The notes under the pieces were generated by a model. The model did no database searches, was not told the origin of the DNA, and was given only the letters and a program-made list of their open reading frames with translations. Below, piece after piece: positions 1-16,025 of a stretch of DNA of 64,000 nt (position 1 is its first letter; the number at the start of each line of letters is the position of its first letter). The DNA is from Formosa sp. L2A11 (lineage in GTDB: Bacteria > Bacteroidota > Bacteroidia > Flavobacteriales > Flavobacteriaceae): contig NZ_CP047028.1 in assembly GCF_009796865.1 (NCBI RefSeq), positions 1,302,001 through 1,366,000 of the forward strand, given 5' to 3'. The translations under genes and the position numbers were made by a program.

Positions 1-1
1 A

Positions 2-940
2 AAATCTTCAAAAGTTACAGTTTCAGAATTCTGGATAGAAAAGATTTCAGATTTAAATAAAGCTGGTAGAACAGGAAATGCTAGAGCCTACAAAGATGTT
101 TATAATTCGTTTTTCAAATTCCATAAAAACAAAAATTTAGTCTTTAGAGAAATCACACCTATTTTACTCGATAAATATGAAACTTATTTAAGAAGTAAAA
201 ATAATTCAGATGGAGGTATTGGGGTGAAAATGCGCGAATTAAGAGCATTGTTTAACGATGCTATAAAGAAAGGTGTTGTAGATGAAAAATATTATCCGTT
301 TAAAATATATAAAGTTTCAAAGTTAAAGGGGAAAGGGATTAAAAAAGCATTAACACGAGATGAAATGAAACTTATGGAAGCACTTAATATTGAAGAAAAC
401 CCACACTTAATACATGCAAAAAATTATATGCTATTTAGTTATTATATGGGTGGGATGAACTTTGTTGATATGATGAAACTAAAATGGGAAAACATACAAG
501 GGGATAGGGTTTTATATATCCGTTCTAAAACTAAAGGAAGATTCTCTGTAAAAATGTTGGAACCAGTAAAGCAAATTATAGCATTTTATAGAACTCAAAA
601 AAGTTCAACAAAATATGTGTTCCCAATCCTGTTGAAAGATAACCTAACTCCAATGCAGATTGAGAATAGAAAGCACAAGACCATAAGTAAATTTAATAAA
701 CAGCTTAAAGAGATTGCAGAAATTCAAGGTGTGAAACAAAACGTTACTTCTTATGTAATAAGACACAGTTTTGCAACAAATTTAAAGTTTGCTGGGATTT
801 CAACAGATTTGATTGGGGAATCTATGGGACATCATGATATTAGTGTAACCAAAGCTTATCTTAAAGAATTTGACGATGAAATAATAGATAATGCAATGAG
901 CAAATTACTTGAAGAACCTAGGTTTAAATACGTGTCTTAA
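2..940 (+). CDS. Tyrosine recombinase/integrase, 5' end cut by the window
   Basis: Site-specific integrase that presumably inserts and excises the island. The frame is open back to base 2, well upstream of the GTG at 224, so 312 residues are visible and the N-terminus is missing. The first part looks like the SAM-like core-binding domain. The catalytic domain shows 'YVIRHSFATN' (box II Arg at about 761-763), 'MGHHDISVTKAYL' (His and the nucleophilic Tyr) and 'YYMGGMNFVDMMKLKW' in place of box I. In relatives the residue before GM is normally the first catalytic Arg; here it is Gly (codon 449-451). A hairpin terminator follows directly. The identity is secure; whether it is fully active is not. 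Confidence 0.9.
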   Translation, partial: KSSKVTVSEFWIEKISDLNKAGRTGNARAYKDVYNSFFKFHKNKNLVFREITPILLDKYETYLRSKNNSDGGIGVKMRELRALFNDAIKKGVVDEKYYPFKIYKVSKLKGKGIKKALTRDEMKLMEALNIEENPHLIHAKNYMLFSYYMGGMNFVDMMKLKWENIQGDRVLYIRSKTKGRFSVKMLEPVKQIIAFYRTQKSSTKYVFPILLKDNLTPMQIENRKHKTISKFNKQLKEIAEIQGVKQNVTSYVIRHSFATNLKFAGISTDLIGESMGHHDISVTKAYLKEFDDEIIDNAMSKLLEEPRFKYVS

Positions 941-948
941 AACAATAA

Positions 949-978
949 AAAAGGCTCTCATTTTATGAGGGTCTTTTT
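949..978 (+). terminator. Rho-independent terminator of the integrase gene
   Basis: A stem of about ten pairs, including two G-U pairs, is formed by 951-960 and 966-975 around a five-base loop, followed by a T run. It lies immediately after the integrase stop codon. Confidence 0.75.
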
Positions 979-1050
979 CAATTAAAACTGAATCTAATCA
1001 GATTTAACTTAAACAATACAATTTAATATTAACCATTAAAATATAAGATT

Positions 1051-1914
1051 ATGCAATTAAGAAAATCAGAAAGAAAACAAGCAAAAATTAAAATGGCATT
1101 ACAAGGCAGTAGTGGCTGTGGCAAGAGTTTAAGCTCTCTTTTGCTAGCTAAAGGGCTAACTAATGACCACCTTGATAAAGTAGCTGTAATTGATACAGAA
1201 AATGGTTCAGCAGACCTTTATGCTCATCTAGGTAATTATAATGTGCTACAATTACAGCCACCATATACACCAGAGAAATTTATTGAAGCTATTGAGGTTT
1301 GTGAAAAAGCAGAAATGGAAGTGATAATTTTGGATTCTATCTCACAAGTTTGGGATGAACTTTTAGATTACCATTCTAAGCTACCAGGAAATTCATTTGC
1401 TAACTGGAGTAAAGTTACACCTAGGCAAAAAGCATTCATTAATAAGATTTTGCAATGTGATGCACATGTTATTGCTACAATGAGAACAAAACAAGATTAT
1501 GTCCTGCAACAAAAAGACGGGAAATATGTGCCTGAAAAAGTAGGACTTAAAGCTGTACAAAGGGATGATGTTTCTTATGAATTTACTATAGTATTTGATT
1601 TAGATATTAAACACTTTGCAATAGCGAGTAAAGATAGGACTAATCTGTTTACTGGTAGACCTGAATTTATGATAAACACCTCTACAGGAAAACGCATTTT
1701 AGAATGGTGTACATCTCCAGTCAAAGAGGTCGATATAAAACAAAAAATAGAAGATTGCTTATCAGTAAGCCAGTTAATGGAATTATATAAAGAGCATCCA
1801 AGTTTTCAACTACCATTAAAAGCTTTGTTTCAAGCTAAGAAAGATTTTTTAGAAAAATTAGTTAACCCACAAAATTTTAGTCAAAATGGAAATAATATCA
1901 GTAACAGAGCTTAA
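1051..1914 (+). CDS. RecA-like AAA ATPase, Sak4/AAA_24 type
   Basis: P-loop ATPase of 287 residues of the kind found in phages and integrative elements as a Sak4-like, Rad51-related recombination ATPase. Walker A is 'GSSGCGKS' at residues 19-26 and Walker B is 'VIILDS' at about 91-96. The acidic 'IDTENGSADLY' after strand 2 is also typical. The protein probably acts on single-stranded DNA in annealing or recombination during element replication or repair. The 3' end overlaps the next gene by 29 bases, which indicates a two-gene operon. The family call rests on motifs and context. A plain AAA_24 ATPase without recombination activity remains possible. Confidence 0.75.
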   Translation: MQLRKSERKQAKIKMALQGSSGCGKSLSSLLLAKGLTNDHLDKVAVIDTENGSADLYAHLGNYNVLQLQPPYTPEKFIEAIEVCEKAEMEVIILDSISQVWDELLDYHSKLPGNSFANWSKVTPRQKAFINKILQCDAHVIATMRTKQDYVLQQKDGKYVPEKVGLKAVQRDDVSYEFTIVFDLDIKHFAIASKDRTNLFTGRPEFMINTSTGKRILEWCTSPVKEVDIKQKIEDCLSVSQLMELYKEHPSFQLPLKALFQAKKDFLEKLVNPQNFSQNGNNISNRA

Positions 1915-2920
1915 TAAGCAACGTCAAGACGTATTTAATAATCCTGAAGGTATTCCTGAAATTGTGCATCCTTTGCAAATACCTGGAGAAAATAAAATAT
2001 ATCAGCATAACCCATTTATAGAGGCTAACACAAAAGAGGTTAGCCTTTCTGTTTTAAAGCATGATTGTATTATACCGGTATTTTCAAAAGATAATGAGAA
2101 AACTTTGGCACATCAGGAGTTTATCGAGATAGTGCAAAGCTGTGTTGGTAATGTGTTTTCCCATCATACAATTGAAGTGCCAGAGGTTAGAGTGTCTCAC
2201 CAGATTAAGGGCAGAACAGCTGATGCTATTTACAAGCCAGTAAAAGAACTTTTAGAACATGAGAAAACCCAGTATTTTGAGAGAATGGCATTTATAATTA
2301 GAATTCCATCTATTACAGAGAATATAAATGGACATGATGTGTCACTAACTGTTGGAGGGGTAAGAGCCTACAATCAAGAAAACCTGTACAACAGAAAAAC
2401 GTATGAGAAATTTAAGTTTTTTATAGGTTTTCAAAATATGGTGTGCTGTAACCTATGTATTTCTACAGATGGGTATCAAGATGAAATGCGAGTAGGGAAC
2501 TATTCTGAATTACAGTCTAAAATCATGAATTTAATAGAAAATTATAATGCAAAATCTCACTTAGAGGGTATGAAGCAACTATCTAAATATAATTTAACTG
2601 AACAGCAATTTGCTCAGCTTATAGGTAGAGCAAGACTATATAACTTTCTACCTAAAGAGGAAAAGACTCTAATTCCAGAATTAATGCTTAATGATGGACA
2701 GATTTCTACGGTAGCTAAAGATTATTATTTAGATAATAGCTTTTGTAGAAACGAAAATGGAGATATTAACGTTTGGAATGTATATAATCTCTTCACTGGA
2801 GCTAATAAGAGCTCTTATATAGACTCTTTTCTGTCAAGAAACGTCAACGCCTTTGGTTTTGCAAAAGGTCTGGCTAAGGCTATCAATGGTGATTCTAAAC
2901 ATCGTTGGTTTTTGAGTTGA
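1886..2920 (+). CDS. DUF3871 family protein
   Basis: A 344-residue protein recognised as DUF3871, a family seen mainly on Bacteroidota mobile elements and of unknown biochemical function. Characteristic stretches are 'IKGRTADAIYKPVKELLEH', 'LSLTVGGVRAYN' (here starting VSLTVGG), 'LTEQQFAQLIGRARLY' and 'YNLFTGANKSSYIDSF'. No catalytic motif is evident. The ATG at 1886 lies inside the preceding ATPase gene, so the two are probably translationally coupled. A strong terminator follows. The association with a Sak4-like ATPase suggests a role in element DNA metabolism, but that is inference. Confidence 0.85.
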   Translation: MEIISVTELNKQRQDVFNNPEGIPEIVHPLQIPGENKIYQHNPFIEANTKEVSLSVLKHDCIIPVFSKDNEKTLAHQEFIEIVQSCVGNVFSHHTIEVPEVRVSHQIKGRTADAIYKPVKELLEHEKTQYFERMAFIIRIPSITENINGHDVSLTVGGVRAYNQENLYNRKTYEKFKFFIGFQNMVCCNLCISTDGYQDEMRVGNYSELQSKIMNLIENYNAKSHLEGMKQLSKYNLTEQQFAQLIGRARLYNFLPKEEKTLIPELMLNDGQISTVAKDYYLDNSFCRNENGDINVWNVYNLFTGANKSSYIDSFLSRNVNAFGFAKGLAKAINGDSKHRWFLS

Positions 2921-2969: not shown

Positions 2970-3031
2970 AATGGAATAATGACATTCCAGACACTATCCA
3001 AAAAACATAATAATGTTTTTAAATATTTGTC

Positions 3032-3460: not shown

Positions 3461-3463
3461 AGG

Positions 3464-3586
3464 TTAACTATTTTCTATAATATTAATTTCATCTTCTGTC
3501 AAATCATAAAGCTCATAAACCATTTGGTCTATTTCCTTATCAGTTTGGTTAATTTGGATTTGTAAACCAAATGGGATTATCAGCAT
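3464..3586 (-). pseudogene. C-terminal remnant of an Eco57I/TaqI-like restriction-modification enzyme
   Basis: A 40-residue frame whose last 27 residues include 'DKEIDQMVYELYDLTEDEI' followed by NIIENS. The pattern D.EID..VY.LY.LT..EI.IIE is the usual C-terminal tail of N6-adenine methylase/specificity fusions such as type IIG and Eco57I-like enzymes. The frame stays open upstream only to about 3607 and no methylase motif precedes it. The fragment may still be translated from the ATG at 3586, but it looks like the end of a gene whose body was lost, perhaps when the neighbouring hsd operon arrived. Confidence 0.65.
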
Positions 3587-3734
3587 AATGATTAAATATA
3601 TGGCAAATTACTTTTGTTCTAAAGTTAATTTCTATCCTGTTGGTATATTTTATTAAAAGGTTTCTTAAATCGAAATCTAATTAACAAAGCTTTACTGCAT
3701 TAGAAAACAATGTATTTTTTTTAAACCATAGATG

Positions 3735-6700
3735 TTACTTTTCATTTTTTTTCAATATTTCAAATCCACCACCAATAATAAACTCTTGCAATAAATCATG
3801 AACCTTAATATTTACTCTAAAAGCAGGAATTGATTTACCCTCCAATTTCTCAAAATATATCTTCGCTAAACTTTTGTCAACAGTACTTTTTAAATCATCA
3901 AAACGTCCATACTCATTTATGTTTTTCTCTGTTATGCCTGAATCCAACATATTACGAAGTTTTGATTCATCTAAACCTAATGTTTCTGAAATTCTAAATA
4001 TCTGGTCGTTTTTAGCATTATAAAGATAATCTGTAATATATTCTCTAAAGGTTTTACCACTTTTAATACTCATAACACCACTTTGAACATCATGTATAAA
4101 AATGTTAGCGTATTTTTGTTCTTCTTGAGTTAATGTAGCAAATGACTTATGTAACTCATCTAGGGTATGTTGTAGTTGCTCATCATCAATATCACCTTTG
4201 AGTTCTTTAAGGTATTTCTCAAAGCGAGAATTCATATAGTCAGCATCAATTTTATCAGTGTCAATCTCTGTTAAATGACCTTCAATTTCAAAAGGAACCT
4301 CACTTGTTCCAGCTCCACCAACATCACCACTAAACAGCTCTTTATATCGTAAAGCTAGAATTAGGTACGTATTTTCATTAAAACTCATTTCAACTATAGC
4401 TCCACTATCAAATTCATATTTTAATTGGCTCCACTTAAAACCTTGAATTTTTGCAGCTTCTAAAAAGTCATTTAAAGTTTTATAAAGTGAAGCAAACCTT
4501 CCACGTTCTGGAATACCTTCAGGTAGTCTTTCAAAATTTAGAATACCTGCTGAACTAAACAACTGAGAAATTTCATGAAACACTAAATTTATTGTAGTCA
4601 GATTTTGTTCTAAGCGGTCAACAAATAAATCAAAAGGTCTATCTCCTGAATATAATTCTATAGCCACTTTAATATGTTGTTCCATAGTATGTGGATACCT
4701 ATAATAACGAATGGTTCCAAAAGGTTTATCTGGACCAAATAGACGATTTGTTCTTGAAAATGCTTGAATAATATTTTGATATTTAAGAACTTTATCCAAG
4801 TAAAGTGTATTTATCCATTTAGAATCAAAACCTGTTAGCATTTGGTCTACAACAATTAGTAAATCAATTTGTTTTTCTGGTGTTGTTTCAATTCTTAAAT
4901 AGGGTGCTTTGTGTGCTAGTCTTGCCGCAATATCTTTTTTAAATTTTGCGTGGGTTGCTAAAGTATAATCTTGCTCATATCTCTCATTATAATCCTCTAG
5001 TAGTTCAACTAAACCATCTTCTTTATAAGCAGCATTACCTACGTTATCAATTGTAGGATCAAATAATGCGGTTGTTTTTAACTCAGGCTTTAATCTTTTT
5101 AATAGTCTATAATATTCAATAGCTTCATTAATACTGCTTGTGGCAAAAATGGCATGAAACTTATTAAGCTTACTTAATCTAAGCCAGTTTTTTAAAATAT
5201 CGTCAACTACTGTTTCTTGATGCGTATCAATTTCATATTGTGATTTAGGTACAAAATCTTCAATGCCACGAATATAATTCCCAGAAGGTTCTGTATAACC
5301 AGCCATGGTTAAATCATTCATGTATCTATTAAATACTTCAGCTTTTTGAGGGTCAGAAAGTGCTTCAGTTTCGTCCACAGCTCTGGCTTTTTCTAGAGCT
5401 ATTACTCGTCTTAAATCTATATCTCTGTAGGTTGATATTTTGTACGGGTCAAAACCTAGTACGTTTTTATCGCTTATACCGTCACCAAGCGTATATCTAT
5501 GTAACTCACTCCCAAATACGGTTGAAGTGGTATTCATATTTATCTGATTTTCATCTTTAATTGGTGTCCCTGTAAAACCAAAAAAGATGGCAGAAGAAAA
5601 TGTATTTTTAATATCAATAAGCATATCCCCAAAAGTAGAACGGTGTGCTTCATCTACGATAAAAACCGTTCTTTTGCTATTCATTATCTCGATGTCTCTA
5701 GCGTTTAAACCACCATCTTCATCTTTAATATTACTCATCTTCTGAATAGAGGTAACAATTAAAGTATTGGTTGGGTCTGAACTTTTTAGTTTTGTAACCA
5801 AAACACCAGTATTCTCAGTTGCTTGCACATCTTCATTTTCATCTGAAAAACCTCGATACTCTTTTAAAGATTGTGTACCCAACTCTATTCTATCCATCAA
5901 AAAGATAACCTTGTCAGCATCTTTTGAGTTTGCAATCAATTGAGCAGATTTAAAACTAGTCATTGTTTTACCAGAACCTGTAGTGTGCCAAATATATCCT
6001 CCTAATGCATGTTTGCTTTTCCAATCTGTTTTAGCAACCTTATCTGATATGGCATTTGCTGCATAATACTGATAGCTACGCATGACCTTTAAAATCCCAT
6101 CATTAGTATCTGGTACCGTATAAAAACCTATTAACTGATGTGCCATAGGAATAGATAGTAGAGAGGAAGCTATATCGTTCCAATCATTTTTTGGCTCATT
6201 ATTAAAATCTGCCCAATGGAAATAAAAATCTTTATTGAATTTTCCATCTGGTCCAGGATTGGCAAAATAAACGGTTTCTTTAGGCTCCATAGCTACAAAC
6301 ACCTGAACTAAAGAAAAGATGCCTGAAAAGGTTCCTGAGCGAGCATAATTCTCTATTTGGTGATAGGCTTGACTTACAGATACACCACTTCTTTTTAACT
6401 CAATATGAATTAGTGGCATACCATTAATTAAAAGCATTAAATCACCACGTCTATCATTTAGTATTTTAGATTTTGTAGGAAACTTTGGTTGTTGTACTAT
6501 TTGATATCTACTTTGTCCTGCGGCTATTTCGTGTCTGTCGTATATTTTTAGGCTGACTTCTTTACCAAAATGCAGTTTATCTTCTGGGTTATCTCGTTTT
6601 ATTGCAACTGTTTTACCATTGATGAAACCATTTAGTTTTAATGGTGTCCTTAAAGCATTAATTTGCTCCAGTATTTGTTGCATTTCACCATTGGTTAATG

Positions 6701-6875
6701 GTGTATCGTTTAAGCGATCTATACCTCTGTTATTATCAAAAAGAATGTTTGCCCAATTGTTAAGTAAATCTTCTTCTGTTGGGTTTTTTATAACCTCATT
6801 TTCCCAACCTTTTTTACTTAGTGCCAATATTAAGGCTTCTTCGAGTTTAGATTCTTTGGTAAATGTCATTTTCAT
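3735..6875 (-). CDS. hsdR: Type I restriction enzyme R subunit (HsdR)
   Basis: Motor and nuclease subunit of a type I restriction-modification complex, 1046 residues. The N-terminal nuclease core has an Asp near residue 145 and 'IHIELKRSG' (E-x-K at 159-161) of the PD-(D/E)xK fold. The helicase part has 'TTGSGKT' (298-304), 'VDEAH' (about 407-411) and 'FGFTGTPI', with a second RecA-like domain after it ('QMLTGFDSKW', 'QAFSRTNRLF'). It is the last gene of the hsdM-hsdS-hsdR operon, 21 bases behind hsdS. Two start codons are possible (6875 or 6869). All catalytic motifs are intact, so the enzyme should be functional. Confidence 0.95.
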   Translation of the reverse strand: MKMTFTKESKLEEALILALSKKGWENEVIKNPTEEDLLNNWANILFDNNRGIDRLNDTPLTNGEMQQILEQINALRTPLKLNGFINGKTVAIKRDNPEDKLHFGKEVSLKIYDRHEIAAGQSRYQIVQQPKFPTKSKILNDRRGDLMLLINGMPLIHIELKRSGVSVSQAYHQIENYARSGTFSGIFSLVQVFVAMEPKETVYFANPGPDGKFNKDFYFHWADFNNEPKNDWNDIASSLLSIPMAHQLIGFYTVPDTNDGILKVMRSYQYYAANAISDKVAKTDWKSKHALGGYIWHTTGSGKTMTSFKSAQLIANSKDADKVIFLMDRIELGTQSLKEYRGFSDENEDVQATENTGVLVTKLKSSDPTNTLIVTSIQKMSNIKDEDGGLNARDIEIMNSKRTVFIVDEAHRSTFGDMLIDIKNTFSSAIFFGFTGTPIKDENQINMNTTSTVFGSELHRYTLGDGISDKNVLGFDPYKISTYRDIDLRRVIALEKARAVDETEALSDPQKAEVFNRYMNDLTMAGYTEPSGNYIRGIEDFVPKSQYEIDTHQETVVDDILKNWLRLSKLNKFHAIFATSSINEAIEYYRLLKRLKPELKTTALFDPTIDNVGNAAYKEDGLVELLEDYNERYEQDYTLATHAKFKKDIAARLAHKAPYLRIETTPEKQIDLLIVVDQMLTGFDSKWINTLYLDKVLKYQNIIQAFSRTNRLFGPDKPFGTIRYYRYPHTMEQHIKVAIELYSGDRPFDLFVDRLEQNLTTINLVFHEISQLFSSAGILNFERLPEGIPERGRFASLYKTLNDFLEAAKIQGFKWSQLKYEFDSGAIVEMSFNENTYLILALRYKELFSGDVGGAGTSEVPFEIEGHLTEIDTDKIDADYMNSRFEKYLKELKGDIDDEQLQHTLDELHKSFATLTQEEQKYANIFIHDVQSGVMSIKSGKTFREYITDYLYNAKNDQIFRISETLGLDESKLRNMLDSGITEKNINEYGRFDDLKSTVDKSLAKIYFEKLEGKSIPAFRVNIKVHDLLQEFIIGGGFEILKKNEK

Positions 6876-6896
6876 TTATTTTATAAAAGCAATATT

Positions 6897-8129
6897 TTAA
6901 TCTTGTGGTACAGACATTTTTGCAAAACAGGCTTTTTTAATGTTTTTTAGTTTTTCTAACTCAACCAAATGAAGATTAATAAGGGAATCTATTTGCAAAA
7001 AATATTGTCCTAATTTCTTCTGTTCTTTCATTGTTGGGACCAACACTTCCGTTTCTCGAATAGTTTTTAGCCCTAAATTTTTAATAGTAGAACCCGTCAA
7101 TTTATTTATAAAATATTTTCGAATTCTTGGCGATTGTAATAATGCATATGTATATGTCTTATCAAAACTTTCTAAAGTAATATACGCCACACTTTTTCCC
7201 AACATTACCTTCTCACCTTTGTACAATGCTAAATTCCCTATAGTTCCATTAATAGACATAAGTATAGTATTTGGACCTAACGTTTCATCATTTTTTGACA
7301 TCTCTTTTTTAGATACTTGCTTTGTTTCATTACTTATATTAATTGTTCCTAAATTCAAATTATTTCCATTAATAAAATAGACCCCACTATCTTCGACATA
7401 TTTAGGTGTGCCATGCAATCCATCACCTATTTTAGGAGCTCCATCACTTAATTTTCGAACATTCCAATTACCTAAAAATTCCTTGAATCGAATTTTGGGT
7501 ACATCTGAACCCTCTTCAGGGAACATCTGCTTGAGAAAGACTTTTTTTAATGTCATGAATTTTTCATACTTGTTCTGGTGAAGAGTGATTAGATTATCTA
7601 GTCGTTCAAAAAGTATCCCAATTTTTTTCTGCTCATCCAGTGAAGAAGATATGCCTACTTTTAATGATAGTAGATTTTCAGGACTAACAGATTGCCTCTT
7701 TACTACAGTTCCTTCTTCATACTGCAAAGCTCTTAATTTGAACTTTTCACTTTTAACAATCAATTCTATAAAAGAGGGTTCTTCTTCTGTAGTAAATGTT
7801 ACATAAATGGGAGATATTACACCCCTTCCATGCTTGTTTCTATCTATGGCTCCATATTTAAGGTTGGAAGGATTGTAAACAATATCATTAAGTTCTGTTA
7901 GTTTATAAACCTTATTTTCTTGGTCTAAAGTTAAATGGTCTCTGTTGTTAGATTTTCTTTCGCTTCTATCTATAACACCTTGTCCTGAAGCAAATGCCAA
8001 AATTGGGGCATCTTCAGATATTTTTTGCATTGATTTACGTTCTGTTAGTACTTCTCCTAATTCTAGGTGTTTCCAATCTTCAGTAAAACCCTTAAAACGA
8101 ACTTCTGGATTTTTGTTTTTCTTAGCCAT
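6897..8129 (-). CDS. hsdS: Type I restriction-modification specificity subunit (HsdS)
   Basis: DNA-recognition subunit of 410 residues with the usual two-fold layout: target recognition domain 1 at about residues 10-190, a central conserved helix, and domain 2 at about 215-400. Each half opens with a related phrase ('VRFKGFTEDWKHLELGEVL' and 'IRFKEFLGNWNVRKLSD'). It joins HsdM to form the methylase and HsdR for restriction. The start lies one base after the hsdM stop codon. I saw no second hsdS, inverted repeats or recombinase that would suggest specificity switching. The recognition sequence cannot be read from the protein by eye. Confidence 0.93.
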   Translation of the reverse strand: MAKKNKNPEVRFKGFTEDWKHLELGEVLTERKSMQKISEDAPILAFASGQGVIDRSERKSNNRDHLTLDQENKVYKLTELNDIVYNPSNLKYGAIDRNKHGRGVISPIYVTFTTEEEPSFIELIVKSEKFKLRALQYEEGTVVKRQSVSPENLLSLKVGISSSLDEQKKIGILFERLDNLITLHQNKYEKFMTLKKVFLKQMFPEEGSDVPKIRFKEFLGNWNVRKLSDGAPKIGDGLHGTPKYVEDSGVYFINGNNLNLGTINISNETKQVSKKEMSKNDETLGPNTILMSINGTIGNLALYKGEKVMLGKSVAYITLESFDKTYTYALLQSPRIRKYFINKLTGSTIKNLGLKTIRETEVLVPTMKEQKKLGQYFLQIDSLINLHLVELEKLKNIKKACFAKMSVPQD

Positions 8130-8130
8130 A

Positions 8131-10716
8131 CTAGTCTTCGCTATTTAGTAAAACCTTCAATTCGTTTAATCCCTTCATATCAAATTCATTTCCTTCAAGG
8201 TCATCAATTAATTTAGACAAAGAATTTTCTGCCCTATTAATCTCTTTAGCCACATCAGAGTAGGTTGCACTGTATTTTTCAGAAAGTCTTAAAACCTTGC
8301 TTGTTAATTCATCAATAATTGTTTTTGGTAAATTATTTAAAGATGTTACAATTGGGTGTACCCATTTTAGTTCTAGTAAATTATAAACTTGCTCATCTGA
8401 TAGTTTTTCAATAGTTTCTTTGGTTTGTAAGTGTAGTTTTGCCTGTTCTTCTTTTACCAGTTTTTTTACTTTTTTATCTTCGGTAATTAAAGAATCTACT
8501 TTAAGAACCTTAGCTTCATAACTATCTTTTTCTAACGTTCCGTTTGTCTTAATATCTACCCTAATTTGTTTGGATTCTTTTATAACCACAGCATTTACAA
8601 AACCGTCTTTAACTTCGTTTATGATTTCTTCTTCTTTTTCGTCTTCGGTAAATATCTCCAATATTTCCTCAAATTCCGAAGTAATTTCTAAAAGGCGATT
8701 TTCTTTCTTTTGTAAACTTTGCAATTCTCGCTTTAGGTATGTTTCTTGCACCAATTCAAAAGGCATAACACGACCTTTCCAACCTTCTTGCTTTTCAATC
8801 TCTTTTCCGTCTTTCTTTTTGAGCACCATATTTGGATCTACTATTTTAGTGGACTCAAAACCTTCAGTTTGTATAATTTCTAAATCAATTTTTATAGCTT
8901 CCCATTCATCATCCAACAATTGGTAAGCTTCATATTTATCAATTAAAGTTATCGTTTCAAGCCTTTTGAAAATATCATTACTTAATACCTCTTTTTCTCT
9001 TGGAACATTAACGGTTTCCATATTGGTTAGAAGTTCCTGTTTCAGGAAACCATCTAAATCTTTAAATGAATTATTAAACTTATTTTTAAAGGCTTTAACA
9101 CTGGCTTGTTCTTTAATAGCAGCGTTTACATCTTCCACTTTTAATTCGGAATTAACTTCTGACGTTTTCGAAAACAATGTTTCTCTCAAATTAGGAAAGG
9201 CTTGCCAATAGTTGTCAAGCTCATCTATTTCTTTTACAGGAATACCTCCAAACATAGAAGCGTAAATATCCCAACTTTCGGGATTTGCCGAAGAGTCTAC
9301 ATATCTTGGAATATTAAGGTTGTACTCATTCCCTCTTATGGTATCTCGTTCTACTACTTTAGAAAATTTAGGAGTTGTCTGTCTATCACGAACTACATCT
9401 ACAATTCTTTTAATATCTGAAGCTCTTAACTTGTTGTTTTTACCTTCTTTTTTAAACCCTTTAGAAGCGTCAATAACTAAAACATCTGTGTTTTTACGTT
9501 TTTGTTTTAAAACTAACACTACAGTAGGAATACCTGTGCCAAAAAAGATACTTGGAGGTAGACCAATTATAGCATCAATATGGTTGGCTTCAATTAGTTT
9601 TTTACGAATTGTACCTTCTTCACCACCTCTAAACAAAACACCATGAGGCAATACAATAGTCATAATGCCATCTGGCTTAATGTGGAATAAATCGTGTAAA
9701 AGAAAAGCGAAATCTGCTTTAGATTTTGGAGCCAATCCAAACCTTGAATACCTTGGGTCTGATTCCTTGTTAGCTGGGTCCCACTTTTGAGAATATGGAG
9801 GGTTTGAAACTACTGCATCTACATAAAGCGTGCTATAAGTCTGTACAGCATCACTTTCATCAAAGTATGGCCAGTCATCTTCTAAGGTATCACCATTACG
9901 AGTTACAATGTTGTTTGGTAAAATATCACGCATTACCAAGTTCATTCTGGTAAGGTTATACGTGTTCTTTTTTAACTCTTGGGCGTAGTATTTAATATTG
10001 TTTTTATCGTCTATATGTTTTGCTACACTATTACCAATATTAATAAGCAAAGAACCTGAACCACTACAAGAATCGTAAATTTGAATTTCTTTTCTGTCTT
10101 TTAAATGGTTTGAAACAATTTCGGATAACAATACTGAAACCTCGTGAGGTGTATAGAATTCTCCTGCTTTTTTACCTGCATTAGCAGCAAACCTTTCAAT
10201 TAAATATTCATAGATAAACCCAAGTACATCATATCCTTGCTTGCTATCCATTGGAATGTCTTTAATCAAGTGTAATAAGTCACTAATGGCTTTGGTTTGT
10301 TTTGGAGCACTTTCTCCTAATTTGCTTAGACCTGTTTGTAATGTGTCAAAAATTCCATCAAATAGTTTTGTGTGAGCTTTACTAATCAAACGACTAAATG
10401 CATTTAAGGCATCTCTAACATTACCTACTTCAAAGTCTTTCCCTTTGCTAATCCAAGTACTAAATAAATCATCATATTTTATGAAGTAACCTATATTTTT
10501 TTTGATGTAATTGACTGTTTCTACATCATCTTCTGAAAGCGCCTTAATATCATCTTCAGCAAAGTCGTTATCCTTACAGAATTGTATTTCTTTATCAGAT
10601 AGGTATTTGTAAAAAATGAAGCCTAATATGTAATCTTTATATTCATTAGCCTCAATTTTAGAACGCATTTGATTTGCTGATTCCCAAATTTTAGCTGCAA
10701 GCTGTTGTTTGTTCAT
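8131..10716 (-). CDS. hsdM: Type I N6-adenine DNA methyltransferase (HsdM), long form
   Basis: Methylase subunit of 861 residues. Residues 1-150 form the HsdM N-terminal helical domain and about 155-480 the N6-adenine methylase core, with SAM-binding motif I 'DSCSGSGSLL' at 215-224 and catalytic motif IV 'NPPY' at 305-308. The remaining 350 or so residues are lysine- and glutamate-rich and largely helical, making the protein much longer than the roughly 530-residue E. coli HsdM. The extension may help complex assembly. It is the first gene of the operon, and an inverted repeat lies 16 bases before its start. Confidence 0.94.
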   Translation of the reverse strand: MNKQQLAAKIWESANQMRSKIEANEYKDYILGFIFYKYLSDKEIQFCKDNDFAEDDIKALSEDDVETVNYIKKNIGYFIKYDDLFSTWISKGKDFEVGNVRDALNAFSRLISKAHTKLFDGIFDTLQTGLSKLGESAPKQTKAISDLLHLIKDIPMDSKQGYDVLGFIYEYLIERFAANAGKKAGEFYTPHEVSVLLSEIVSNHLKDRKEIQIYDSCSGSGSLLINIGNSVAKHIDDKNNIKYYAQELKKNTYNLTRMNLVMRDILPNNIVTRNGDTLEDDWPYFDESDAVQTYSTLYVDAVVSNPPYSQKWDPANKESDPRYSRFGLAPKSKADFAFLLHDLFHIKPDGIMTIVLPHGVLFRGGEEGTIRKKLIEANHIDAIIGLPPSIFFGTGIPTVVLVLKQKRKNTDVLVIDASKGFKKEGKNNKLRASDIKRIVDVVRDRQTTPKFSKVVERDTIRGNEYNLNIPRYVDSSANPESWDIYASMFGGIPVKEIDELDNYWQAFPNLRETLFSKTSEVNSELKVEDVNAAIKEQASVKAFKNKFNNSFKDLDGFLKQELLTNMETVNVPREKEVLSNDIFKRLETITLIDKYEAYQLLDDEWEAIKIDLEIIQTEGFESTKIVDPNMVLKKKDGKEIEKQEGWKGRVMPFELVQETYLKRELQSLQKKENRLLEITSEFEEILEIFTEDEKEEEIINEVKDGFVNAVVIKESKQIRVDIKTNGTLEKDSYEAKVLKVDSLITEDKKVKKLVKEEQAKLHLQTKETIEKLSDEQVYNLLELKWVHPIVTSLNNLPKTIIDELTSKVLRLSEKYSATYSDVAKEINRAENSLSKLIDDLEGNEFDMKGLNELKVLLNSED

Positions 10717-10731
10717 GTTTATTTTATTTAA

Positions 10732-10764
10732 GGCTATAATTCTTTATGAATTTATTTTATAGCC
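10732..10764 (-). promoter_or_regulatory. Perfect inverted repeat in the hsdM leader
   Basis: GGCTATAA (10732-10739) and TTATAGCC (10757-10764) are perfect 8-base inverted copies separated by 17 bases, ending 16 bases before the hsdM start codon. It could be an operator or an RNA hairpin limiting hsdM translation. No regulator gene is adjacent. Confidence 0.35.
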
Positions 10765-10984
10765 ATAATGGTATGTTTAGTTATTTAGAAAGTTACTTGT
10801 CTGTTTATGTGTTGTTGAAAGTTATACTTATTATTATAAAAAAATGAGTTCCATAAATATATAAAACCTTGTGAGGTTTAAATAACTTCAAAGGTCTTGA
10901 ATAATGGATATGCCCTATTATTTTTAGATAATATGATGAAAAATTTATTACTAAAACATGTAAATACAAAAGTAATTAATAAAA

Positions 10985-11002
10985 GTAAGAATTTTATCTT
11001 AC
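10985..11002 (-). terminator. Weak terminator behind the antitoxin pseudogene
   Basis: GTAAGA and TCTTAC form a six-pair hairpin with a six-base loop. On the minus strand it is followed by TTTT and begins one base after the ancestral stop codon of the pseudogene. Confidence 0.4.
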
Positions 11003-11003
11003 A

Positions 11004-11718
11004 TCAATGGTTGCGAAAATCAATAGGTTGTAAAAATTCATTTCCAGTTATAGAATTAATAATCTCAATATGTTGTAATCTACCAATTATAAAAGCATGT
11101 TACGTTCCAAATTTTTTCAGCGTAAAACACAATTTCGTTAGTAGTTAGTGCTTTATTTTTATGTATTTCATTTTCTTCTTTTTCAGATAAAACAATGTTA
11201 GAAGCAAAAGTACCAGCTTCCTTTTTATATATTTCATTTTCACCTCCTGTATAAATATTTTCAATAGAAATATACTTTTTACCATGTATAAGTATTTGAC
11301 CTAATTTCATGAAAAAAGTTGAGCCAAAAAATATTATTTCGCTTATATCTACTACTTAATTGTATTAATGGTACTCCATTAATACAGCTTGTAGCCATGA
11401 ATGGTTGTTCTAGGTAAACAAGGTGTGTATATAACTTTTACAGCAATGATTTTAAGTTGATAGTTGATACTAGCTTGATATTAATTATAGTTGAGCTTAT
11501 AACTAAAAATGAGCAGGGATTTCAATGCTTGTTTAAATAGCACAGTCATATCTTGTGTTATTGAACTTTCTCCTTTAATACAGATGTAATTGTTTTTTTT
11601 CTAATTTTGTTGTTTACAGCGAATTTTTTGACCCTAAACTTTTTTCTTCTAATGCTTCTTATAAGATCCCGCCTGGGTGTGTAACACTCTCAGGATAATA
11701 CTGATTAATAGTTGCCAT
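11004..11718 (-). pseudogene. Decayed HigA-type HTH antitoxin fused to ImmA/IrrE peptidase
   Basis: Minus-strand reading from the ATG at 11718 gives 'MATINQYYPESVTHPGGIL', then a TAA at 11659-11661 where relatives have Lys, then 'EALEEKSLGSK'. After a frameshift near 11625 come 'KKTITSVLK', 'GESSITQDMTVLFKQAL' and 'IPAHF' in alternating frames, which is the HigA-like helix-turn-helix region. After an apparent internal deletion the ImmA/IrrE part follows: 'NGVPLIQLSSRYKRNNIFW', 'FFHE', one inserted base, then 'LGQILIHGKKYISIE', so the HELGH zinc motif is both shifted and changed to LGQ. A last frameshift leads to 'IIGRLQHIEIINS' and a stop at 11004. At least five lesions make it clearly dead. 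Confidence 0.85.
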
Positions 11719-12004
11719 AGCTGTTGTTTGTATTTTTTAAATCTTATGGAGCCAGACTTTTTTTGTCAAACTTTATCAGTGTTGGCAAATTTTTCAAGTT
11801 TACTATTTTAAATGTTATATCCATAGCAGATTTAAAAAACAGTTATTGTTTTAAAGATTAAGCTTATTAATTTTTTTCTAATTAATAGCTAATACTTTCA
11901 TACATCAAGAAGAATAAAACTAAGCCTAAATGGTTTGTTGTAAAAAAAAAATTGAAAATTTTTTTTTTATAGTTCATGAAAGCGTTAAGTACCTTACTCG
12001 TAGA

Positions 12005-12053
12005 CCCCCACTCATTTCTGGGGATAAAGATGCCCCCTCCACTTTATATAGTG
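12005..12053 (+). other. GC-rich cluster of overlapping hairpins
   Basis: In the otherwise very AT-rich gene-free stretch 11719-12164, bases 12006-12010 pair with 12019-12023 (CCCCA/TGGGG). The same GGGG can instead pair with CCCC at 12033-12036. A third small stem joins 12040-12043 and 12050-12053 (CACT/AGTG). The first two stems exclude each other, as in attenuators. The cluster lies about 110 bases before the gene at 12165. I see nothing else in 11719-12164 apart from the likely dead promoter region of the antitoxin pseudogene. Confidence 0.3.
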
Positions 12054-12164
12054 AAGAAAATTTCTAGGCAGAGTTAATAAATCCAAGTTGATAGCTGTGA
12101 TTTATACGCTGTAGGTTATTGATTTTCTGTGTGTGGTGTACTACAACTCAAAAATTTTAGAAAA

Positions 12165-12560
12165 ATGGTTAGAATCGTAAATTACAAAGAAAGAAAAAAG
12201 GATGATGGCACTTCATTCTTCGTTTTGGAACTGCAAGGTGGAATTGAAATGGTATTAAGCAAGGTTACGGGTAACTTCTACGCTACTGCGAAGAAAGCTT
12301 ATATACCTTCAACATTTGATGAGCAAGTATGTACTGGGCTTATTGGTACAGAAATGCCAGGAAGCATCATTAAAGAGGATTGTGAGCCTTTTGAATATGT
12401 TGTAAAGGAAACAGGGGAAGAAATTACATTATCTCACAGATGGGTATATGTTACAGAAGATGCTGTAAAGCCAAAACAGGAAAATTATAGAGCTGAACGA
12501 AATGTATTAGCAAACTCTGATGTGTTTTCCAAAAATGGAATATTGGAGTCTGTTGAATAA
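12165..12560 (+). CDS. Conserved hypothetical protein of Bacteroidota mobile elements
   Basis: A 131-residue protein starting 'MVRIVNYKERKKDDGTSFF'. I chose the ATG at 12165 over the in-frame ATG at 12129 because the family pattern begins at this Met and the upstream 12 residues look non-coding. The protein appears mostly beta-stranded with the segment 'YATAKKAYIPSTFDEQVC'. It has no membrane segment or signal. I recall similar proteins next to integrases and mobilisation genes in Flavobacteriia, without a known function. A perfect bidirectional terminator follows. Confidence 0.7.
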   Translation: MVRIVNYKERKKDDGTSFFVLELQGGIEMVLSKVTGNFYATAKKAYIPSTFDEQVCTGLIGTEMPGSIIKEDCEPFEYVVKETGEEITLSHRWVYVTEDAVKPKQENYRAERNVLANSDVFSKNGILESVE

Positions 12561-12604
12561 AAAAATCAGTTCAATCTAAGTTTAGATTGAACTGATTTTT
12601 TTTG
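12560..12604. terminator. Perfect 20-pair bidirectional terminator
   Basis: The arms 12560-12579 and 12582-12601 are perfect inverted copies with a two-base centre, flanked by A and T runs. It can stop transcription from both sides and closes the gene at 12165. Confidence 0.85.
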
Positions 12605-12944
12605 TAATTAACAAAGAGTTAAAAAAATCTTTTATAAAACGTGTAATACCTGGATAATAATAATAGTGTGTGTTACTGTCACTTAGAGAAATCAAGTGTT
12701 TATAATGTGTTATTTAAGATATTTAATTCTTCCAGGTAAACATAATCGGAAAATAAAATGTCTCAAAGAAAGAAAAGAACCAAAAGAAAGAAACTTTACT
12801 GGAGCTTTCCCTTTATAAAGTTTGTAATTGTGTAGAATGTTTTTTGAGAGTGTCTCGAAAGAAACTTCGTGCAAGTTACAGGTTCTGAAATTAAGATGCA
12901 AGCAAAATCGCAGTTATATTCCTAGGAAACTAAATTTTAAAATT
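12605..12944. other. Intergenic stretch without a convincing gene
   Basis: These 340 bases hold only a 25-codon basic frame at 12758-12835 (starting MSQRKKRTKRKK) and a spurious upstream extension of the next gene. I see no promoter element matching TAnnTTTG and no clear hairpin. Confidence 0.4.
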
Positions 12945-13379
12945 ATGAAAATTTCAGAAATAAGTGTCTCGTATTCAAATAGTAATAAAGAGAAGTTAAA
13001 AGCAAATAATAGCAAAGATAGCTTTGAAATCCTTTTAAAATCATGGAGTAAAAATACTATTGAATTACAGGAGGAATTCAAAGTTTTACTTTTAAACAAG
13101 GGTAATGTTGTTTTAGGGGTGTATGATTTATCAAAAGGAGGTGTGTCTTCAACGGTAGTTGACTCTAAATTGGTGTTTGCAGTAGCCTTAAAATGCAATG
13201 CAAGTAATATAATAATAGCACATAACCATCCAAGTGGAAATGTAAAACCAAGTGATGCAGATAAGAATATTACGCAAAAAATCAAAAAAGCAAGTCAATA
13301 TTTAGATATAGTATTGTTAGACCATATAATTATTTCTAAAAATGACTTCTATAGTTTTTCAGATAATGGTATATTGTAA
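12945..13379 (+). CDS. RadC-like JAB domain protein
   Basis: A 144-residue protein of the RadC/JAB metallo-isopeptidase fold, common on mobile elements. It shows the zinc signature 'HNHPSGNVKPSDAD' (H-x-H-P...S-D-x-x-D pattern) and the late 'LLDHIIISKNDFYSFSD'. The helix-hairpin-helix region of full-length RadC is absent, so it is the short mobile-element form. The start at 12945 ('MKISEIS') was chosen over the frame opening at 12828, whose first 39 residues do not resemble the family. RadC-like proteins are not proven repair enzymes, and the element-borne role is unknown. Confidence 0.85.
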   Translation: MKISEISVSYSNSNKEKLKANNSKDSFEILLKSWSKNTIELQEEFKVLLLNKGNVVLGVYDLSKGGVSSTVVDSKLVFAVALKCNASNIIIAHNHPSGNVKPSDADKNITQKIKKASQYLDIVLLDHIIISKNDFYSFSDNGIL

Positions 13380-13509
13380 CACTCCTGATATTTATATTAT
13401 TAATTTGTAAGATAGCGTGATTGCCCATAATAAAGGCTAAAATGTATCGCCTAGAAATAATGTAAATTAGTATTAATAGCGAATTTTTAAAAATCAATTG
13501 ATTTATTAG

Positions 13510-13860
13510 ATGAAAAAATTACTTTATTTTTTACTGCTTATTGGTGTGTTTTCCTGTAAATCCCAAGATTGTGAAACAATACCTACCACATTTAGAAGTT
13601 ATTCTGAAGCTTTAACAACTATACAAAACGCTAAATTTAACATTGCAAATTCTGTAGATACTTCAAAAAGTTCTTGGATTGAAGATGCTAATTATTATAG
13701 TTGTGATGGTGTAAATGGGTTTTTAATTATAGAAACTTCAAAGAAGGACTATATTTTTAAAAATGTACCAATTAAAATATGGAATAGCTTTAAAAATGCG
13801 AGTTCTTTTGGTTCCTACTATAGTGAAAAAATAAGAGGAAATTATCAGTTAGTTCTTTAA
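13510..13860 (+). CDS. Lipoprotein with a KTSC domain
   Basis: A 116-residue predicted lipoprotein. The N-terminus 'MKKLLYFLLLIGVFSC' is a lipoprotein signal with the acylated Cys at residue 16. Residues about 53-115 match the KTSC domain pattern: 'SSWIEDANYY', 'KKDYIFKNVPIKIW', 'SSFGSYYSEKIRGNY'. KTSC domains are small, of uncertain function and usually cytoplasmic or phage-borne, so a version exported on a lipid anchor is unusual. It is the first of four plus-strand genes before the right island end, although a 44-base gap separates it from the next. Confidence 0.8.
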   Translation: MKKLLYFLLLIGVFSCKSQDCETIPTTFRSYSEALTTIQNAKFNIANSVDTSKSSWIEDANYYSCDGVNGFLIIETSKKDYIFKNVPIKIWNSFKNASSFGSYYSEKIRGNYQLVL

Positions 13861-13904
13861 GTATGGATAACTTAAAAATTTGTAAAACAAAATCTAATTA
13901 AAAT

Positions 13905-14630
13905 ATGAGTTTAGAAGAAGAAGAAGAAGAAGATTCGTTTCTAAAATTAGTTGAATTAATGAAAGTAAGGGTTTCTCGTATGGAGAAAAGAAACGGAGTT
14001 AAGCCAACTTTTAATGACTATGTAGGAGAGATGCTTGTTGAAGGTGTTATTTCTTCGGATAATATATACAATCAGATTGAAGGCCATGCCATGGTATGGA
14101 GGGGTGCAAGACTAGGGGAAACTCATCATAAAAGACTCATTTCTGAATTAGATCGTGCTGCGGTATTTGCATTGAGGAATAAATCAAAAGTCAAAGAATC
14201 CGGTGATAATGTTGAAGAATGTAAAACTGAAGAAAAGCAAGTAAAAATATCTGAAGATGATGTTGTTATAAAGGGTGGTAATAAATTTTTTGACTTTATC
14301 CAATCTCTGTTTAAAAAAATCGATGATGATATTGTTGAGCTTTTTCAACGTGTAGGACTTTTGTACATAGCTGGAATTGCATTGATGCTATTCGTAATAT
14401 TGTTTTTAGCTGACCTATTTGGTGAAGAAATTAATTATTATGTTTTATTGATATTTATATCAATAGGAGTTGTTTTTTATATTTTATTAAAAATTCAATC
14501 TGTTGCTCCAGAGAGTAAATTAAGTCTCGTTATTTCTTATGTGTTTACATTCTTAATTGGGGTGATTCTTATCAGTACTACTGTTTTAGGTCGGGATTTA
14601 ATAATATTTTTTATAAATGTGTTTGATTAA
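13905..14630 (+). CDS. Hypothetical protein with C-terminal membrane segments
   Basis: A 241-residue protein I do not recognise. It begins with a run of six Glu codons written as (GAA)6. Residues 10-95 form a charged helical domain ('VELMKVRVSRMEKRNG', 'GHAMVWRGARLGETHH'), 96-125 a polar linker, and at least three membrane segments follow at about 150-170, 178-197 and 207-227, with a possible fourth at 231-240. The layout is soluble sensor or adaptor first, membrane anchor second. The gene at 14642 starts 11 bases after the stop codon, so they are probably co-transcribed. Confidence 0.65.
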   Translation: MSLEEEEEEDSFLKLVELMKVRVSRMEKRNGVKPTFNDYVGEMLVEGVISSDNIYNQIEGHAMVWRGARLGETHHKRLISELDRAAVFALRNKSKVKESGDNVEECKTEEKQVKISEDDVVIKGGNKFFDFIQSLFKKIDDDIVELFQRVGLLYIAGIALMLFVILFLADLFGEEINYYVLLIFISIGVVFYILLKIQSVAPESKLSLVISYVFTFLIGVILISTTVLGRDLIIFFINVFD

Positions 14631-14641
14631 ATTTTAGAATA

Positions 14642-15412
14642 ATGAATGAAGTTTTTCACATGCTAGAATCTTTATCTTCTGATAAAGGGTTGTATTCTAA
14701 AGAAAAAGTTGCTTGGTGGTTGTTAAAATATGAAAAAGAATATTATTCCCAATTGAGGTTTTTTGAAACCTTATCTATAAATTATAAAAGCCCAAGAAAC
14801 TTAACAAAATACACGAAAGAATCCCAATTTCTTGAATTATACGAAATTTTAAACAAGGTTATGGGCTTTTGTAATGAAGAGGCTTATTACAAAGACCAAT
14901 TAGATGTTTATGACTCAGTGAAAAATAATGTAGAACAGTCAAAAAAATGGTTTGAAATTCATAAAACAGATAGGAAGCATAAGTATTCAGAATTCGAGTG
15001 TTTATTTCAGGATACTAGTACTCCCTGTGGATTTAATTTTGAAGTAGGCTTTCCGCTGTCTGTTAAATTTAAAAAATCAGAATTTCAATACACACTTAAG
15101 TTTTTAGAAATAATAGAAATGTCTAGTAAAGTAGAAATTATTGGTGTTGTTGAAATAATAAATGTTTTGGAATTTATAAAATTGAATGAACATCATGTTT
15201 ATAATAGAAAAACTATTGTAGTGTATGTAGATGATTTTAATGACAGTAAATTACTTGTTAGGTTTGTAAAAGGTAAAATAGGATTACTTGATAACGTTAA
15301 AGTGGGGCAAAAGATAAAAGTTTATGCAGACCTAACAGGAGGGGAAAATGAATTTGATAAATTGGGATATTCATTAAGTCTCCTAGGTTGGAAAATCGAA
15401 ATTTTAAACTAA
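14642..15412 (+). CDS. Unknown N-terminal domain fused to a DUF3127-like OB-fold
   Basis: A 256-residue protein. Residues 1-160 are helical at first, then beta-rich, with no motif I know. Residues about 164-256 align with the DUF3127 protein encoded next: 'VEIIGVVEIIN' against 'MELIGKIKLIN', 'LLVRFVKGKIGLLDNVKVGQ' against 'ILVEFVQDKCDLLNNFIVGQ', and 'LSLLGWKIEILN' against 'NAIQGWRIEIVN'. The basic insert with 'GFRKREVV' of its neighbour is not conserved. It looks like a diverged duplicate of the OB-fold gene with a new N-terminal domain. It ends eight bases before the next start codon. Confidence 0.7.
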   Translation: MNEVFHMLESLSSDKGLYSKEKVAWWLLKYEKEYYSQLRFFETLSINYKSPRNLTKYTKESQFLELYEILNKVMGFCNEEAYYKDQLDVYDSVKNNVEQSKKWFEIHKTDRKHKYSEFECLFQDTSTPCGFNFEVGFPLSVKFKKSEFQYTLKFLEIIEMSSKVEIIGVVEIINVLEFIKLNEHHVYNRKTIVVYVDDFNDSKLLVRFVKGKIGLLDNVKVGQKIKVYADLTGGENEFDKLGYSLSLLGWKIEILN

Positions 15413-15420
15413 AAAAAATT

Positions 15421-15780
15421 ATGGAATTAATAGGTAAAATAAAGTTAATAAATAAGACCCAAACAATAGGTAACAATGGTTTTAGAAAACGTGAAGTTGT
15501 TATTACAACAGAAGAGCAATATCCACAGCACATTTTAGTAGAATTTGTTCAAGATAAATGTGATTTACTAAATAATTTTATTGTTGGTCAGGAAGTTAAA
15601 ATAGGCCTTAATTTAAGGGGGAGAGAGTGGATAAATCCACAAGGTGTAATAAAATACTTTAATGCTATTCAGGGGTGGAGAATCGAGATTGTAAATGTAG
15701 AAGAATCTATGTCTACAAAAGCAATTGAACAAGAACCTGTAAGCTTTTTGGATGAGTCAGATAATGATTTGCCTTTTTAG
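15421..15780 (+). CDS. DUF3127 OB-fold protein with SSB-like C-terminal tail
   Basis: A 119-residue DUF3127 protein with the family phrases 'NNGFRKREVVITTEEQYPQH', 'FVQDKCDLLNNF' and 'GREWINPQGVIKYFNAIQGW'. The ATG at 15421 fits the family start; the frame further upstream overlaps the previous gene. The C-terminus is 'DESDNDLPF', very close to the acidic DDDIPF tip by which SSB proteins recruit partners. I infer a single-stranded-DNA-binding, SSB-like protein of the element. Experimental knowledge of the family is thin. It is the last gene before the attachment site. Confidence 0.85.
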   Translation: MELIGKIKLINKTQTIGNNGFRKREVVITTEEQYPQHILVEFVQDKCDLLNNFIVGQEVKIGLNLRGREWINPQGVIKYFNAIQGWRIEIVNVEESMSTKAIEQEPVSFLDESDNDLPF

Positions 15781-15805
15781 TTTTAAATGAGATGTTGTAG
15801 CATTC

Positions 15806-15827
15806 AGGTTAAACATAGGTTAAACAT
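15806..15827 (+). repeat. Tandem 11-base direct repeat near the attachment site
   Basis: AGGTTAAACAT occurs twice in direct succession (15806-15816 and 15817-15827), about 110 bases inside the tRNA fragment. Short direct repeats beside an attachment core are typical of integrase arm-binding or excisionase sites. Confidence 0.5.
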
Positions 15828-15936
15828 TTTAGATAAGAAGTGATACAAATAGCAACTAAGTGCAATTATATAAATCAATAAGTGATTGTTTTTTAAGTAT
15901 ATGCAAATATTAGAAAGAATTTGAAATATATCTTTA

Positions 15937-15983
15937 ACTGACTGTTAATCAGAGGGTCCTTGGTTCGAGCCCAAGAGAGGGAG
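15937..15983 (+). other. Right attachment site: 3' half of tRNA-Asn
   Basis: The sequence reads as tRNA from the anticodon stem to the discriminator base: stem CTGA/TCAG around loop CTGTTAA (anticodon GTT, Asn), T-stem CTTGG/CCAAG around loop TTCGAGC, then the 3' acceptor strand AGAGGGA and G. No 5' half (acceptor TCCCTCT, D-arm) exists upstream, so this is not a working tRNA gene. It is the expected target duplication of the integrase. Confidence 0.85.
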
Positions 15984-15994
15984 CAAAGCTAGCT

Positions 15995-16025
15995 AAAAGC
16001 CTTACAGAAATGTAGGGCTTTTTTT
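15995..16025 (+). terminator. Terminator originally serving tRNA-Asn
   Basis: A ten- to twelve-pair stem (15995-16006 with 16011-16022) closes a GAAA tetraloop and is followed by a T run. It follows the tRNA 3' end by 11 bases, as expected for the native terminator of the interrupted locus. Confidence 0.85.

Follow-up and report, generated by a model that had tools for sequence, protein, structure and literature searches.

An uncharacterised slot-2 cargo module with a DUF3127 gene in integrative elements of Flavobacteriales

The block of three genes studied here is best read as one version of a slot-2 cargo module in integrative elements of Flavobacteriales, whose slot 1 carries mostly known anti-phage systems. 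Across the loci read, an orfB-family protein is constant. One set of elements has orfC 3' of it, and the upstream gene is exchanged, with products that are mostly membrane or exported proteins. Elements of this kind are known already; the module in slot 2 is a variant of mobile conflict cargo that is uncharacterised. No published description of the module was found in the literature searched, which mostly excludes subscription papers, and the literature on RadC, flavobacteria and defence islands yielded nothing concerning this element.

The element and its two cargo slots

The window (the whole stretch of 64,000 nucleotides that was analysed, G000:C1:1302001-1366000 of the 3.78-Mb Formosa sp. 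L2A11 genome) contains in its first 15.9 kb the larger part of an integrative element of 18.7 kb, which is inserted in a tRNA-Asn gene (L004:11247-11321, beyond the window's limits) and carries the block at its right end. Two exact att repeats of 60 bp lie 18,663 bp apart; the left copy starts inside the tRNA-Asn gene, and the right copy (attR, 15938..15997, plus strand), which repeats the 3' part of tRNA-Asn together with the bases that follow, forms the element's right end. In both congeners searched (G014 and G245) the tRNA-Asn site is unoccupied, with the two flanks joined without the 18-kb insert. With its tyrosine integrase, its att repeats and the empty site in relatives, this is a tRNA-inserting integrative element. 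The original prediction had placed the block in a cargo position beside an attachment site, and both the exact repeat and the two empty sites bear this out; that the block is cargo also agrees with the type I restriction-modification system carried by the same element. Three element relatives have tRNA-Met 3' of the cargo (L053, L062 and L086; 14 loci scanned), compared with tRNA-Asn here.

The element encodes an excisionase-type HTH protein, a tyrosine integrase, an AAA_24 ATPase, a DUF3871 protein, type I restriction-modification, p143, RadC and a KTSC protein, then the block. The part of its backbone within the window (1..2920, plus strand) comprises the integrase, whose start lies in L004, the ATPase and the DUF3871 protein, and is followed on the minus strand by HsdR, HsdS and HsdM (3735..10716). 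The anchor genes of the element family are p143 (12129..12560, plus strand), a conserved uncharacterised protein, and RadC (JAB domain, 12828..13379, plus strand). A lipoprotein-like protein with a KTSC domain (13510..13860, plus strand) lies directly 5' of orfA as a neighbour whose membership of the module is only possible; a similar KTSC-type lipoprotein-like protein is also found 3' of RadC in L086. Between HsdM and p143 there is about 1.4 kb without a long ORF (window 10717-12128); a possible gene remnant in it is a minus-strand ORF of 76 aa at 11080-11310. Pfam scans of seven further element proteins, p143, RadC, the KTSC protein and the block revealed no relaxase or transfer gene, although the 302-aa first ORF and the 297-aa third ORF of the element gave no meaningful Pfam match and could hold a divergent relaxase. 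The Bacteroidetes-type promoter TTTG-N16-22-TAnnTTTG is absent from window positions 12501-16000.

Slot 1 lies before p143 on the opposite strand and slot 2 after RadC. With one to three slot-1 genes tested in each, seven of the eight elements checked, the window included, gave a PADLOC match in slot 1: type I restriction-modification in the window, a type III restriction enzyme with its methylase in L051, a type III methylase in L052 and L058, a type IIG enzyme in L053, a DrmD-like helicase in L050 (its neighbour being without a match) and a complete Hachiman pair, HamA and HamB, in L045 (G157, 2995-6461, minus strand). The single gene tested in L054 had no PADLOC match. Outside this element, restriction or nuclease-helicase-type neighbours were seen, among the neighbours tested, at no fewer than 4 of 14 loci with the orfB N-domain (orfB-N); they are HsdM-like proteins in L055, MutH and a C-5 methylase in L056, ResIII/PLD/DUF3427 in L059, and HNH and a DUF559-helicase in L065. 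PADLOC searches with ten homologues and slot-2 or upstream neighbours returned one weak match (Csm4, 0.009, to a neighbour in L065).

In slot 2, a reading of the proteins shows a small minus-strand HTH gene before the upstream gene (hereafter X, of which orfA is the window's version) in 16 of the 18 elements with orfB, and nine of these genes were confirmed as HTH. This XRE-type gene (for example L051:7954-8208, minus strand) faces X-orfB-(orfC); it is absent from L120 and from the window, where the KTSC protein takes its place. Lipoprotein and 'IGEQYE' genes often join X-orfB-(orfC) in slot 2. They form a second recurrent pair, a CSSDDD-type lipoprotein-like protein and, after it, a protein of 114-159 aa with an 'IGEQYE' motif, observed at L050:10101-10901, in L118, and after RadC in L087 and L089, and occurring also without orfB; the members tested had no credible Pfam or PADLOC match.

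Proteins of the block

The three closely spaced plus-strand genes predicted at 13905 to 15780 are present as orfA, orfB and orfC, separated by gaps of 11 and 8 bp. Conserved homologues exist for each of them, which rules out a chance origin of the reading frames, and the DNA of the block had no match among plasmids. PADLOC 2.0 gave no credible match to the three proteins (the best being a chance-level AbiEi match to orfC, E 0.033). The block has the look of a defence-type cargo module not described before.

orfA (13905..14630, plus strand, 241 aa) has a helical soluble N-domain, a charged linker and a hydrophobic C-terminal half, much as originally proposed (a soluble N-terminus and a membrane-spanning C-terminus). 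A cruder hydropathy count gives four hydrophobic segments in the window copy, and the homologue in an Aequorivita MAG (L051:8290-8970, 36% identity) has three, all in the C-terminal half. A low-confidence model built from two rows (mean pLDDT 56.5) likewise places long C-terminal helices after the helical N-domain and linker. Nothing above chance was obtained for orfA from Pfam, PHROGs, PADLOC or NCBIfam (best E 0.077, NCBIfam), no effector domain was recognised in it, and no relatives were found in viral contigs or plasmids; its fold search gave no match, which is uninformative for a model from two rows. Two weak matches in other genomes were rejected. The one in G173 (4.7e-4, single-sequence search, 199 family genomes) has eight internal stops, and the one in G296 (5.2e-4, two-row profile, 397 genomes) covers the membrane part only.

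orfB (14642..15412, plus strand, 256 aa) has a helical N-domain, at about residues 1-165, and fused behind it, at about 166-256, a diverged domain of the DUF3127 OB type. Its last ~85 residues match DUF3127 at 3.5e-5 with 24.4 bits, below the 27-bit cut-off, and the corresponding scores are 26.1 bits in the Formosa relative (L050) and 39.3 bits, above the cut-off, in Aequorivita. Direct alignment of this domain with orfC (34% identity, 4.6e-9) supports the earlier view that the C-terminal 90 residues are a diverged copy of the orfC OB-fold. The OB core is alignable to DUF3127; the acidic C-terminal tip and several conserved residues of the family (the QYPQ and KYFN stretches) are missing. In a model from 17 rows, block means were 62-96 pLDDT over residues 1-160 and the OB part was poor; in the N-domain, helices lie between residues 2 and 121, followed by a beta stretch and one more helix reaching residue 163.

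The N-domain, which had been called unplaceable, could not be assigned to any family in PADLOC, Pfam, NCBIfam or PHROGs, with nothing above chance. The whole model found no match in the PDB at E 0.001 or better by Foldseek, an absence that does not amount to a new fold, and searches of the orfB alignment or orfC against sequences of solved structures gave nothing credible. A VIA fold match of orfB to an S-layer protein (Z 6.5, 5.8 A, 136 residues) was discarded as being at the level of unrelated helical models. The LRR_adjacent match in Aequorivita orfB (4.6e-5, above its cut-off) occurs in 1 of 17 members and was taken as chance, as were DEK_C, VMAP-M1 and DUF3867, each likewise in one of the 17. 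No relatives of orfB were found in viral contigs or phages.

orfC (119 aa, plus strand) is a predicted SSB-like protein of the ssDNA-binding type. Its conserved ATG is at 15421 (15421..15780; the mechanical ORF opens at TTG 15388), and over the whole domain it matches DUF3127 (PF11325, 5.1e-29) and phrog_4932, 'single strand DNA binding protein' (4e-42), in agreement with its original description as an SSB-like DUF3127 protein. It ends in DNDLPF, and all nine island orfC copies end in DLPF after acidic residues; an acidic C-terminal tip is a mark of SSB proteins. The family is one of DNA metabolism, with DUF3127 matches in 296 of 299 family genomes and more than one match in 6 of 299. A second copy, 66% identical to orfC, is present in the Formosa sp. 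L2A11 chromosome (G000:C1:1570966-1571340; L005:6967-7344); it is apparently an alternative SSB, little covered in the literature searched.

In a tree with 27 rows named core, the nine island orfC copies share a single supported fork (98/99) with the core row L020, a duplicate of the island copy of L062. When six phage rows were added, the island clade was neither recovered nor rejected (p-AU 0.43). A single origin of the island copies is likely on these trees. DUF3127 matches were found in 121 of 50,697 phage records, many of them redundant; the names of 110 of the 121 refer to Flavobacterium, Polaribacter, Cellulophaga, Nonlabens or Tenacibaculum. In phi18:3 the DUF3127 gene lies less than 1.5 kb from RecT.

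Constant and exchanged genes in slot 2

The orfB N-domain alignment led to 17 loci in the named genome collection (through one peptide pattern, which misses divergent members), belonging to Formosa, Aequorivita, Algibacter, Lacinutrix, Tamlana, Pareuzebyella, Brumimicrobium, Algicola, Winogradskyella, Mesonia, Christiangramia and one Flavobacteriaceae MAG. Brumimicrobium is of a different family within Flavobacteriales and Christiangramia is of Flavobacteriaceae; the remaining genera are presumably also of Flavobacteriales. As judged from its sequence relatives, the orfB N-domain is a Flavobacteriales family. It matched 18 of 397 family genomes, and 32 orfB-N loci were read, four duplicates having been removed. 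p143 was found at 18 of these 32, RadC accompanying it at all 18, which marks them as the same element family; at the other 14, two of them short contigs, p143-RadC was missing from the stretch read.

Among the family genomes searched for orfA and the loci fetched by orfB-N, the exact trio was seen in the window and in the Aequorivita MAG (L051). Co-occurrence beyond this genome, which the original prediction had left to be checked, thus holds: the trio recurs in Aequorivita, although it is rare, with orfA accepted in two genomes only. The orfB-orfC pair is present in nine elements (window, L050, L051, L053, L058, L062, L086, L118 and L120), with island orfC directly 3' of orfB-N in constant order in all nine fetched cases, and orfC is missing from 23 of the 32 orfB-N loci. 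Of these nine elements, the window, L050, L051 and L086 have an orfB fused to the OB domain, and in the other five orfB is short, at 101-119 aa. The stable unit is therefore orfB-N with, in one set of elements, orfC, and the upstream gene is variable.

A sample drawn by p143 (299 genomes, 32 places; the L088 contig ends before RadC, and one G182 place was left out) contained 11 places with RadC close downstream. orfB-N occurred at 7 of these 11 and orfC at 3, all three together with orfB-N, and the four RadC elements without orfB-N all lacked orfC. Both p143 places of G200, where RadC is more distant, had neither orfB-N nor orfC, and the remaining fetched p143 places had no RadC and neither of the two genes. 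Because orfC was met only with orfB-N in the p143 sample and the fetched loci, orfC depends on orfB-N there, and the reverse does not hold; island orfC was sought in loci fetched by orfB-N or p143, and extra DUF3127 copies in G020, G023 and G229 are possible exceptions.

The genes of the module also differ in their rate of change. In the nine orfC-bearing elements (36 pairs for each gene), the median pairwise identity is 78.5% for p143, 72% for RadC, 71% for orfC and 39% for orfB. One gene changing fast among slow neighbours is typical of conflict genes.

A same-strand upstream neighbour lies within 150 bp of 29 of the 32 orfB-N genes, several of them overlapping. At E<1e-3 these 29 X genes fall into 23 groups, and the 17 located in p143-RadC elements into 13. 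In the elements, a hydrophobic or export segment was detected in 14 of 17 X proteins versus 16 of 43 other same-strand slot-2 ORFs (Fisher p 0.0017, an optimistic value because the hydropathy-window test also counts signal peptides and lipoprotein signals and because some X are homologous and hence non-independent). Over all orfB loci the proportions are 16 of 29 for X and 120 of 457 for ORFs including X (p 6e-4 once X is removed). The membrane partner that had been predicted for the DNA-binding protein accordingly finds support in related elements, where X is mostly membrane or exported, and fails outside them, where just 2 of 12 X have a hydrophobic segment. Since orfC is absent from most orfB-N loci and X is seldom hydrophobic outside the elements, the pairing of an SSB with membrane partners is not general to the orfB-N family. 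L120 has orfB-N and orfC without X, and the Formosa X (L050:8103-8972) has a weak TerB match (1.9e-4, below cut-off) and no membrane segment.

Possible functions of the module

The original prediction had compared the block with abortive-infection systems, and this stays a hypothesis, as neither an activity nor a target nor an effector domain came to light. Our tentative interpretation, possible rather than probable, is that the block is a conflict module in which the SSB-type pair senses and the exchangeable membrane protein acts. For such a module we infer three steps: orfB and orfC would come together through their OB domains, ssDNA or a phage SSB would be the signal, and X would act at the membrane. 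As copies of one fold, orfC and the orfB OB domain may co-assemble on ssDNA, either mutually or with the DUF3127 protein of a phage; the tip-less OB domain would mark the assembly with the fast-evolving helical domain, which would trigger X when phage or other foreign ssDNA accumulates, and X would harm the membrane or block the invader. The module would then be a sensor pair with swappable membrane effectors. That there is a class of conflict systems of this design, in which an SSB-like protein and a tip-less OB partner of the same family on ssDNA (possibly with phage DUF3127) signal to an exchangeable membrane effector, we consider fairly unlikely. We counted in favour of SSB-based sensing the slot-1 defence genes, the restriction and nuclease-helicase neighbours of orfB-N outside the element, the close same-strand neighbour upstream of most orfB-N genes, the hydrophobicity and many groups of X in the elements, the linkage of orfC to orfB-N, the rate of orfB, the phage DUF3127 genes and the precedents of AbpAB and Retron-Eco8. 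Against it we counted the lack of an effector domain in orfA and of fold matches for orfA and orfB, the orfB-N loci without orfC, the scarcity of hydrophobic X outside the elements, L120 without X, the Formosa X without a membrane segment, the absence of orfB relatives from phages, and the SSB-type tip of orfC, which is expected for plain DNA maintenance too.

Slot 2 might instead hold immunity genes against toxins of competing bacteria, which we regard as somewhat unlikely; orfB-N would be an immunity protein, the membrane proteins and lipoproteins would guard the envelope, and orfC would protect or replace a host SSB attacked by a DNA-targeting toxin. Small, fast-diverging soluble and lipoprotein-like proteins in mobile slots fit this explanation, as do the X of L084 (the same as that of L121), with its sub-threshold RHS_repeat match (E 0.29), and a lone orfB-N gene in L119 (G257, 7728-9796), which adjoins an ADP-ribosylglycohydrolase and a small unnamed protein and could be part of an immunity cluster. 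Orphan immunity genes are reported in acquired interbacterial-defence systems of Bacteroidales (PMC10470768) and offer a precedent. However, none of 17 orfB members matched a Pfam immunity family at E 0.01, and most elements differ from a simple immunity array in having a divergent HTH gene opposite the operon. Inspection by eye of the neighbours listed showed no large polymorphic toxin, which counts little because orphan immunity genes need no toxin nearby. Compared with those Bacteroidales clusters, the block is alike in its small fast-evolving cargo genes on mobile DNA and differs in the missing immunity match, the HTH gene of most relatives and the SSB-like protein.

Element maintenance, with orfC as the element's own SSB, orfB as a replication or recombination partner acting with the AAA_24 ATPase and orfA as an unrelated passenger, is an unlikely explanation. 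The DUF3127 assignment and acidic tip of orfC, its rate of change about as slow as that of RadC, and the ATPase and RadC encoded by the element would all suit it; of the block proteins, orfC thus belongs to a maintenance-type family, and orfA and the orfB N-domain match none. Yet L054 has the same integrase, AAA, DUF3871, p143 and RadC without orfC, and the low frequency of orfC at p143-RadC places, the many orfB-N loci read without p143-RadC, and the fast divergence of orfB also speak against a maintenance role. An exclusion module, in which a membrane protein and a cytosolic ssDNA-binding partner block the incoming ssDNA of related mobile elements, would account for the variety of membrane proteins found next to a protein of the ssDNA-binding type on mobile DNA; we consider it very improbable, given that no relaxase or transfer gene was recognised in the element proteins scanned and that X falls into more groups than one exclusion family would give.

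Among known proteins, the core and phage SSB-like proteins of DUF3127/phrog_4932 are the closest: orfC is a full-length member with the tip and the orfB C-domain is a diverged member. The differences are the absent tip of orfB, the unplaced helical domain to which its DUF3127 part is joined, and the operon setting of orfC next to exchangeable genes whose products are mostly membrane or exported. Published accounts describe activation of AbpAB by phage SSB on ssDNA and of Retron-Eco8 by SSB proteins. The block resembles these two systems only in its proposed logic, with SSB on ssDNA as the signal, and differs in encoding its own SSB-like protein; no nuclease, helicase, reverse transcriptase or retron parts of their type were found above chance in orfA, orfB or orfC. 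Defence-carrying integrative elements in tRNA genes share the integrase, the att repeats and the exchangeable restriction-modification or Hachiman cargo, and differ from the present element in its second slot after RadC with uncharacterised cargo.

If the module does act through SSB-based sensing, it would be a compact sensor with modular membrane effectors, in bacteria whose phages in part encode the same SSB family, and a readout of phage ssDNA or SSB without a nuclease would become testable. Even if this interpretation fails, the analysis delimits a two-slot element of Flavobacteriales that recurs and carries defence genes, and the orfB N-domain is an uncharacterised, fast-evolving protein family that can be searched by profile.
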